From contig JANQXM010000039.1 of NCBI GenBank assembly GCA_030729385.1, forward strand, positions 1-64,000: 64,000 bases of DNA. Reading direction: 5' to 3'. The position numbers and the translations under genes were made by a program. Source of the DNA: Opitutales bacterium (GTDB lineage Bacteria > Verrucomicrobiota > Verrucomicrobiia > Opitutales > Coraliomargaritaceae). This document shows positions 17,466 through 35,753 of the stretch, piece after piece; positions within the stretch are counted from its first letter, which is position 1; every line of letters begins with the position of its first letter. The notes beneath the pieces are model-generated. The model did not search any database. It saw only the letters and a list, made by a program, of their open reading frames with translations, and was not told where the DNA came from.

Positions 17466-17513
17466 CTATGCTGACGATCACGTCACAGAGTGAAGTGGCT
17501 ACACTTTACTAAA
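17466..17513 (-). repeat. 48-bp repeat copy without the 23-bp insertion, inverse orientation
   Basis: Reverse complement tttagtaaagtgtagccacttcactctgtgacgtgatcgtcagcatag matches 30121..30191 at 46 of 48 positions once 23 bp is removed from that copy. Confidence 0.75.
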
Positions 17514-17662: not shown

Positions 17663-19516
17663 TTACGCGCTGATCAGCTCGGCTTCGTCTTTTTCGACCT
17701 TTAGGTTTTCGATGATGAACTCTTGGCGCTCGGGTGTGTTTTTACCCATGTAGAAAGTGAGCATATCTTTAATCGTCATGCCTTTTGGAATGATGACTGG
17801 ATCGAGGCGGATGTTTTTGCCGATGAAGTGTTGGAACTCGTCGGGTGAGATTTCACCGAGGCCCTTGAATCGTGTGATCTCGGGCTTAGGACCGCATTCT
17901 TCGATTGCTGCCACACGTTCTTCTTCGCTGTAGCAGTAGCGGGTGACCTTCTTATTGCGCACTCGGAAGAGTGGGGTTTGTAAAATGTGCAGGTGCCCTT
18001 GCTTGATGAGTTCTGGGAAGAACTGTAGGAAGAATGTAATCAACAGTAGGCGGATATGCATACCATCGACATCGGCATCGGTAGCGATGACGACGTTGTT
18101 GTAGCGTAAGTCGTCGAGACCGTTCTCGATATTGAGTGCGTCTTGGAGGAGATTGAACTCTTCGTTTTCGTAAACGACTTTTTTGGTCAGTCCAAAGGAG
18201 TTGAGTGGCTTGCCCTTGAGTGAGAAAACCGCCTGTGAATTGACGTCACGTGCCTTGGTGATCGAACCGGATGCGGAATCACCCTCGGTAATGAAGAGGG
18301 TAGAGTCGAGGCGACCGTCTTTTTTGGTGTCGAGGTGGATACGGCAGTCGCGTAGTTTCTTGTTGTGGAGCTTCGCTTTTTTCGCGCGCTCACGGGCGAG
18401 CTTTTGAATGCCTTTGAGCTCTTTGCGGTTGCGCTCCGAGTCTTGGATTTTTTTGCCAAGGATTTCGGCCGTCTCGGGATTGCGGTGGAGGTAGTTGTCG
18501 AGCGCTTGTTTGATGAAATTCATCATGAAGGTGCGCACCGTTGGACCTTTCGGTCCCATGTCTTGCGAGCCGAGCTTGGTCTTGGTTTGCGACTCGAAAA
18601 CGGGCTCTTCGACCTTGATGGCGACGGCGGCACAGATGGAGGTGCGGATGTCGACGGCATCGAAGTCTTTCTTGTAGAATTCCTTGATGGTCTTGGCGAG
18701 GGCTTCGCGGAAAGCGGCGAGGTGAGTGCCGCCCATCGTGGTGTGCTGACCGTTGACGAAGGAGTAGTAGTCTTCGCCGTAAGAGTCGTTGTGGGTGAAA
18801 GCGATCTCGATGTCGGTATCCTTGAGGTGGACGATCGGATACATGGGCGCACCATCGAGTTTGTTTTCAAGGAGGTCGTGGAGGCCTTTGTCGGACTTGA
18901 ATTTCTTGCCGTTGTAGACGATGGTCAGCCCGCTGTTGAGGTAGGCGTAATTCCAGAGCATGTCTTCGACGTAGTCATCGCGGAAGCGAACTTTACCGAA
19001 GATATCGGGGTCGGCGTCGAAGCGCAGAGCGGTGCCATTTCTGGCGTCTTTGGCTACCTTGTCCTTTTTGTCTTCCGAAATAACTTCGCCTTGAGAGAAA
19101 GAAACTGATCGGGTCATGCCTTCGCGGAAGGCTTGGATTTCGAATTCGGAGGAGAGGGCGTTGACCGCCTTGATGCCGACGCCATTTAGGCCGACGGATT
19201 TTTTGAAGGCTTCAGAGTCGTATTTGGCGCCAGTGTTGATCTTGGAGGCGCAGTCCTTGAGTTTGCCGAGGGGGATGCCGCGGCCGTAGTCGCGCACGGC
19301 AACGTGGGTGCCGTCGATGTTCACTTCGATGACCTTGCCATTGCCCATGACAAACTCGTCGATCGAGTTGTCGATGACCTCTTTTAGGAGGATGTAGATG
19401 CCGTCATCTGGGGAGGAGCCGTCACCGAGCTTACCAATATACATGCCAGGGCGCAGGCGGATGTGTTGTTTCCAGTCGAGGGATTTGATGCTATCTTCGG
19501 TGTAATCAGCAGACAT
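17663..19516 (-). CDS. parE: Type IIA topoisomerase B subunit, ParE/GyrB-like (second copy in the window)
   Basis: [70 protein letters not shown]. Confidence 0.85.
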
Positions 19517-19667
19517 GGAGGTTGTTTTGAACATCGAACATCGAACGCTCAACATTGAACTTCGAATATTTGTGAAATCGTCGTTTGTTGGAGGGATGTG
19601 CTAGCTAAATGGCTGTCGGATTTGCTTTACCCGCGGTGGGAATGTCTGTGTCCTTGCTGGTTCTGCT

Positions 19668-22796: not shown

Positions 22797-22889
22797 TGCA
22801 GCCACGTCACTCTGTGACGTTTGATATTCAGAGTGTTCAGTAGGTTAGATCGCATTGTAAAGAAACACGGCAGGGGACTGCCGTGGCTA
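22797..22889. repeat. MITE/REP-like element, 93 bp
   Basis: tgcagccacg...cgtggctaca near-perfect terminal inverted repeats; inner palindromes cacgtcac-tct-gtgacgt and cacggcag/ctgccgtg shared with 30131..30238. Confidence 0.65.
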
Positions 22890-23053
22890 CAGCTTGGTTA
22901 TATGGATGTTGCCACTTCATTCTGCAACCTGAGCCTGGCGTTCAATCGCAACCGCCGATGGGTCGATGTCCTTAGGCGTTTCTGCGGTAATGACGGAGCA
23001 TTGCCCTCCAAATTATACGTCCAAACATTTTAGGACAGCGGTCTGTCGAAGAC

Positions 23054-29970: not shown

Positions 29971-30130
29971 GTTGATGAGACTCACCACGGAGGGCGAGCG
30001 ATTGTAGTGAATCCGATCTACATTACTGATACAGGTAGCGGCGGTCGCAGTGTCTCGGCATAGCCATCGGCGACGACGGATCCCGACCGCCATCCGTCAG
30101 AGACAGCCACAATCTTGTTATTTAGTATAG

Positions 30131-30238
30131 TGTAGCCACGTCACTCGCCCGACCTGAGCCGGTCGAAGGTGTGACGTGATCGTCAGCATAGTCCATGATA
30201 GCTAAAAACAGAACACGGCAGAGACTGCCGTGGCTACA
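30131..30238. repeat. MITE/REP-like element, 108 bp, perfect 10-bp terminal inverted repeats
   Basis: TGTAGCCACG ... CGTGGCTACA termini; internal palindromes; related to 22797..22889 and 17466..17513. Confidence 0.7.

Positions 30239-30461: not shown

Positions 30462-32981
<2,520 letters not shown>

Positions 32982-33068: not shown

Positions 33069-35753
<2,685 letters not shown>

Follow-up and report, generated by a model that had tools for sequence, protein, structure and literature searches.

REP-like repeats belong to the most common small repeats in bacterial genomes. In the 64,000-nucleotide stretch of Opitutales DNA analyzed here (the window), one such repeat carries a 23-bp palindromic insert in the loop of its hairpin, and we asked how this insert came to lie there. 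We propose that the 23-mer is probably a copy of a minimal non-autonomous palindromic element that entered the apex of a REP and was then copied together with it. The home genome (G000) is a 2.59 Mb draft of 73 contigs, 99.6% complete, with the window on contig C39, and its census is based on pattern searches and selected genome stretches.

A 23-bp insert at the tip of a REP hairpin

The insert (GCCCGACCTGAGCCGGTCGAAGG, 30147..30169) interrupts the 3-nt loop of its host hairpin and is bordered by CACTC on the left and TGTGACG on the right. Of the 48 positions on its two sides (30121..30146 and 30170..30191), 46 agree with the reverse complement of 17466..17513, exactly as the first-pass annotation had claimed. 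The insert is absent from that copy and, again as claimed, from a further copy at 22.8 kb, whose uninterrupted loop reads CACTCTGTGACG (22808..22819). The features of the window are:

30131..30178, + strand: host GTAG-tagged REP, TGTAGCCAC-GTCAC-loop-GTGAC-GTG, with the insert in its apex
30147..30169, + strand: 23-bp insert GCCCGACCTGAGCCGGTCGAAGG, with the module core TGAGCNNGTCGAA at 30155-30167
30214..30238, - strand: partner REP TGTAGCCACGGCAGTCTCTGCCGTG, empty loop TCT, forming an inverted pair with 30131-30178 (REPIN, GTAG ends outside)
17479..17503, - strand: empty paralog of the host REP, loop TCT, with the REPIN spacer start GATCGTCAGCATAG, as at the window host
22797..22819, + strand: second empty copy in the window (TGCAGCCACGTCACTCTGTGACG)
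22866..22891, - strand: partner REP of the 22797 copy, GGCAG stem, loop TCCC

No target-site duplication is present at the insert. In sibling copies its ends can be placed only to within one base, the insert reading either TCTCGAC... or CTCGAC...GGT. The identical 23-mer was also found at C21:12421, and no Rfam family matched at the window locus. The proposal of a filled and an empty site, with insertion exactly at the hairpin apex, holds, except that the two are paralogous copies of a repeat and not orthologous sites, so the insertion event need not have occurred at the window locus. By eye, the insert locus lies just beyond the 3' end of a gyrA-like ORF (30462-32981, - strand), whose neighbor is gyrB-like (33069-35660, - strand); in addition to these two, a GyrB/ParE-like ORF was seen at 17663-19555 (- strand).

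The host unit (TGTAGCCAC-GTCAC-TCT-GTGAC-GTG) is a GTAG-tagged REP, having an unpaired GTAG at one end, a 20-40-bp palindrome and many copies, with 105 pattern matches in the home genome vs 7 for a control pattern. Its stems occur as GTCAC/GTGAC, GGCAG/CTGCC, GGCAC/GTGCC and CCTCAC/GTGAGG, and TCT is the main short loop in every one of them. Most units are paired in inverted orientation with GTAG outside, giving about 30 REPINs (dimers in opposite orientation, 20-100 bp apart), and the window pair spans 30131..30238. As single-stranded DNA, the empty hairpin is a good folder with a z of -4.45, and the filled form retains the outer stem with a second hairpin stacked above it. A second REP family, GTAGCGCA-GCACCG-TCT-CGGTGC, has an empty copy at the end of L206 and one with the module in its loop at C11:6286. 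Elsewhere in the genome, four REPs of the same orientation stand in tandem with a period of ~42-44 bp and loops TCT, TCA and others (L197, C61:11134-11361).

The first-pass annotation had proposed that further copies of the insert be sought in the loops of other palindromes. The exact 17-mer CCTGAGCNNGTCGAAGG occurs seven times in the home genome vs 0 times for the control, and all seven copies lie in REP loops, in which a random point of the genome falls with a chance of ~1.6e-4. Relaxed searches allowing one changed base added loop-borne copies, with the host stems GTCAC, GGCAC and GGCAG. For TGAGCNNGTCGAA we found 25 sites vs 5 in the control; judged by eye, ~19 of these 25 lie in hairpins with compensatory flanks (CC/GG, CA/TG and GG/CC), and the remainder look like background. 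The insert can be described as a module, a hairpin with a conserved asymmetric 13-nt apical loop, TGAGCNNGTCGAA, on a variable, covarying short stem. Canonical copies carry a GTTC or (C/T)GTC tag ~4-9 nt ahead of the CTGAGC core, and the linkers that join stem and module vary between copies.

Filled, empty and doubly filled copies in the home genome

Filled and empty paralogs with common flanks were found in two REPIN lineages. The lineage of the window copy, which shares the spacer GATCGTCAGCATAG, includes empty copies (C21:74610, C48:52030 and C39:17412, the last being window 17479..17503), filled copies (C39:30123, in the window, and C21:12421) and a doubly filled one (C71:12767). In the second lineage, a filled copy (C7:30280) and an empty one (C7:30486) lie ~200 bp apart. 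The census of the home genome gave ~88 short-loop units vs ~13 that bear the module, and empty copies exceed the filled ones by far in both number and diversity, which speaks against the filled form as the ancestral state, the outcome named earlier as contrary to insertion. In a tree built from the flanks only, filled copies fall among empty ones and copies with the same insert are not all grouped, with weak support from a short alignment; dating the insertion from this tree was dropped because the alignment is too short.

The doubly filled copy holds a 27-bp second insert inside the loop of the first (CCTG[TGATTCATCCTGAGCTGTGTCGAAGGG]AGC), and the identical second insert TGATTCATCCTGAGCTGTGTCGAAGGG was found at the same point of a different first-insert variant at C72:45753. 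A degenerate second insert occurs at C59:52195, and a different one of 24 bp, TGCCTGGCGTGAGCGAGTCGAACG, lies between CTGAGCTT and GTCGAAGG at C59:37723. As a separate observation, a repeat of the form CCAGYA.AGCTGGARACCGCTTAT.TYCGCTGATGGACGCTTATTT (L195, L212 and L221) adjoins module copies in this genome, at C59:52195, C59:49515 and, in part, C11:6911.

The module in relatives

Within the same family, the genome G010, of another genus, has at least 151 exact copies of GTAGGGGCTTTNC vs 0 for the control. Its GTAG REP is unrelated to that of the home genome: most listed copies read GTAGGGGCTTTGC-TT-GCGAAGACCGCG, with loops of 2-4 nt, and six listed copies have the module at the REP loop, e.g. 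GCTT[GTCCTAGACCATGAGCTTGTCGAATTG]GCGAAG. GTAG hairpins of similar type that bear the module were also found in G011, G019 and G021. Since stem, tag-proximal sequence and linker change from host to host, we read this as a repeated association and not as one inherited loop. A different insert, CCTCCTTCGCCAAGGCTACGGCGGACAGG, was seen in the loop of one GTAGGGGCTTTGC REP (G010:C1:902792-902859), so REP loops may serve elements of more than one kind. In G019, the module also stands in a head-to-tail array at C12:125974-126092, repeated every 23 bp (GGCCTGAGCTTGTCGAAGCGCCC).

PF01797 (Y1_Tnp/RAYT) gave 13 matches in the congener G001, 6 in the congener G002 and none in the home genome, which at 99.6% completeness has ~105 REPs and no detectable Y1 transposase gene. 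At one locus of G001 (L242), a 205-aa ORF with one of these matches (RAYT-like) has empty REPs upstream (GTAGGGGTGYCAC-TT-GTGRCACCC) and a module-filled REP downstream (GTAGGTTGTCACTT[GCCGAAGGCTCTGAGCTTGTCGAAGGA]GTGGCAC). This is the only case of an exact module close to a RAYT gene among ~40 RAYT loci. Across the bacterial family, the Y1_Tnp count and the module count correlate with a rho of 0.60, and the correlation is gone after allowing for genome size. For an orthologous empty site in G001, no TGTAGCCAC REP was recognised among the matches listed.

Spread across phyla and self-nesting

To the extent that record titles identify the source, a scan of named genomes placed the core CTGAGCYTGTCGAAG in more than 10 phyla among the matches listed. 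These matches include Proteobacteria, Chloroflexi, Bacteroidetes, Actinobacteria, Cyanobacteria and Armatimonadetes, and also Eremiobacterota, Neomarinimicrobiota, Myxococcales, candidate phyla and others. Over 118 loci from many phyla, the two innermost stem positions are Watson-Crick paired in 106 (expected 47.8) and 98 (expected 40.9), and the covarying pairs outside the fixed core comprise C-G, G-C, T-A and A-T. Upstream of the module stands a tag, CCGTTC or TGTC, with TGTC at -7 in 15 of 117 loci and GTTC in 29; CGTC was found in the nested copies L079 and L089 but not in the window copy. GTAG shows no positional peak upstream of the module in this cross-phylum set, and in many phyla the module lies where there is no GTAG REP. 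GTAG REPs are therefore only one kind of host.

The module also lies within itself. The copies L079 (Bacteroidales) and L089 (Litorilinea) both read CTGAGCCTG[CGCCGTCCTGAGCYTGTCGAAGGG]TCGAAGG, and three related nested cases were found in G019; one strict nested pattern had no match in 388 genomes of the phylum. Among IMG/VR contigs chosen only for a doubled right half-module, the left half is often doubled too, a qualitative result in that the balance of halves was judged by eye and duplicate contigs were included. Balanced nests of depth 2, 3 and 4 occur on one contig. On IMGVR_UViG_3300033145_001097 (41.8 kb), four left and four right half-modules were seen at L285:614, and three and three at L282:295. 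The original claim of an insertion at a hairpin tip was thus correct but smaller than the data, which extend it to several REP families, several genomes and second-level nesting.

How the module may have reached hairpin tips

The loop position, the lack of a target duplication, the recurrence in unrelated hosts and the nesting are directly seen. From these observations, we infer that the element would enter GTAG-tagged REPs at their 2-4-nt apical loop, leaving no target duplication, and presumably while the hairpin is extruded and its DNA single-stranded. REP and insert together would then be copied as part of REPINs, which would place identical inserts at several loci. For the insertion step alone, the catalyst that we tentatively put first, at less than an even chance, is a Y1 (HUH) tyrosine transposase of RAYT type. 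We prefer it because RAYTs act on GTAG REPs, because Y1 transposition leaves no target duplication, and because the congeners are rich in Y1 genes, one of their RAYTs being flanked by empty and module-filled REPs; for insertion of the module this support is circumstantial. With no Y1 gene detectable in the home genome, its copies are probably immobile now.

Among the alternatives, we take most seriously, while regarding it as unlikely, a template switch or recombination event between hairpins, in which the polymerase, during replication, leaves the REP tip for a second hairpin, copies the tip of that hairpin and comes back, without any transposase. Such an event accounts for the apex location, the absent target duplication, the variable linkers and the nesting, and it requires no Y1 gene, which the home genome lacks. 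However, a defined element is suggested by the 27-bp second insert, which recurs unchanged and at one and the same position in two backgrounds, and by the tag and the covarying stem of the dispersed copies.

It is rather improbable that the short loops arose by loop deletion from an older, intrinsic form of the REP with a long self-complementary loop. Long self-complementary loops do stand beside short ones in enterobacterial GTAG-3, and loops of up to 27 bp are found in GTAG-14 of Bradyrhizobium (PMC3733652). Against this, TCT short loops dominate all stems and the second REP family in the home genome, with the long loop in the minority, and the unrelated REP of G010 repeats this picture, with short loops in most of its listed copies and the same module in a minority. 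The occurrence of the module in many phyla away from GTAG REPs, and second-level inserts that split the module itself, point the same way.

We find it very doubtful that the nests were made by local slippage with quasipalindrome correction, a process that would first give tandem copies of one half-module and then rebuild the palindrome by copying the other half too. Tandem half-modules with only left or only right halves do exist (L290, L291, L296 and L300; L323 and L306), so slippage contributes in some places, and the deepest nests reiterate one unit, TCGTACCCTGAGCCTG. Yet slippage cannot yield the inserts in REPs, whose sequence is unrelated to the REP, and is insufficient for the window copy; nor can it yield nests with differing inner and outer stems, as at L326 (AAGC/GCTT outside, CCC/GGG inside), L310 and C59:37723. 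An unbalanced, slippage-like case was also seen at L050 (Dehalococcoidia, 5264), where tandem left halves (CTGAGCTTGTCGTC repeated) precede one complete module. Chance or an assembly artefact deserves next to no weight: the home genome is a 73-contig draft, but the pattern recurs on many independent contigs and in several genomes, including a two-contig assembly, with control patterns near zero.

A wider reading may be considered, which we hold as a speculation with the odds somewhat against it. The module could represent a class of ~25-nt elements, spread over more than 10 phyla and recognised by the loop TGAGCNNGTCGAA, that targets any exposed hairpin tip including its own, with an enzyme (RAYT-like or other) that inserts into single-stranded loops. 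Such a class, building on its own tips, would produce nested hairpins of growing depth. Hairpin tips, the data suggest, serve as landing sites for mobile DNA that ranks among the smallest known.

Comparison with known systems

The cyanobacterial SDRs attributed to Elhai and colleagues (2008) are reportedly dispersed, ~21-27 bp long, thought to be mobile and found within other repeats; their sequence is said to be unrelated to the module, and they are said to be limited to cyanobacteria. In the open literature searched, the 15-mer was found in no paper and shorter strings gave only unrelated primers or sequences. No description of the CTGAGCYTGTCGAAG core or of its nesting was found in that collection, which misses most subscription journals.

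The host hairpin resembles the described GTAG REPs and REPINs (Di Nocera et al. 2013, PMC3733652; Bertels and Rainey 2011, PMC3116915) in its unpaired GTAG tag, its 20-40-bp palindrome with a mostly 3-nt loop, its many copies (~105 here), its inverted pairs with GTAG outside and its subfamilies with compensatory stem changes. It differs from them in that a minority of copies hold, in the loop, a dispersed module with a cross-phylum identity of its own, and in that no RAYT gene is detectable in the home genome.

The module itself shares with CGTC-tagged REPs a small palindrome and perhaps an unpaired 5' tag, which in some copies reads CGTC or TGTC (PMC3733652). CGTC-type repeats have no known dedicated transposase, and dimers of one CGTC family sit within other palindromes in H. 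neapolitanus (Di Nocera et al. 2013, PMC3733652). In contrast to the described CGTC families, which have 8-9-bp stems starting with AT and loops of 4-5 nt, the module's stem measures 2-4 bp (~2-3 bp of it covarying outside the fixed core), its conserved loop is 13 nt long, and its tag is often GTTC. A MITE (70-300 bp, with 15-30-bp terminal inverted repeats; PMC3733652) was rejected, the insert having 23-27 bp, no such termini and no target duplication.

REPs are specific insertion targets of IS elements (Tobes and Pareja 2006, PMC1525189; IS1397 cited in PMC3116915). These are full insertion sequences with a transposase, whereas the module is 23-27 bp, non-coding and occupies its own loop as well as those of several REP families; a REP-targeting insertion sequence was rejected for the window copy, as the 23-bp insert encodes no transposase. 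REPs as IS targets, REP dimers inside palindromes and REPs with long self-complementary loops have thus already been described (PMC1525189, PMC3733652). Beside them, the many paralogous filled and empty pairs and the three nesting levels in one genome provide substrates for testing loops as insertion targets, and the congener RAYT, with a filled REP on one side and an empty one on the other, offers a concrete one for loop insertion.
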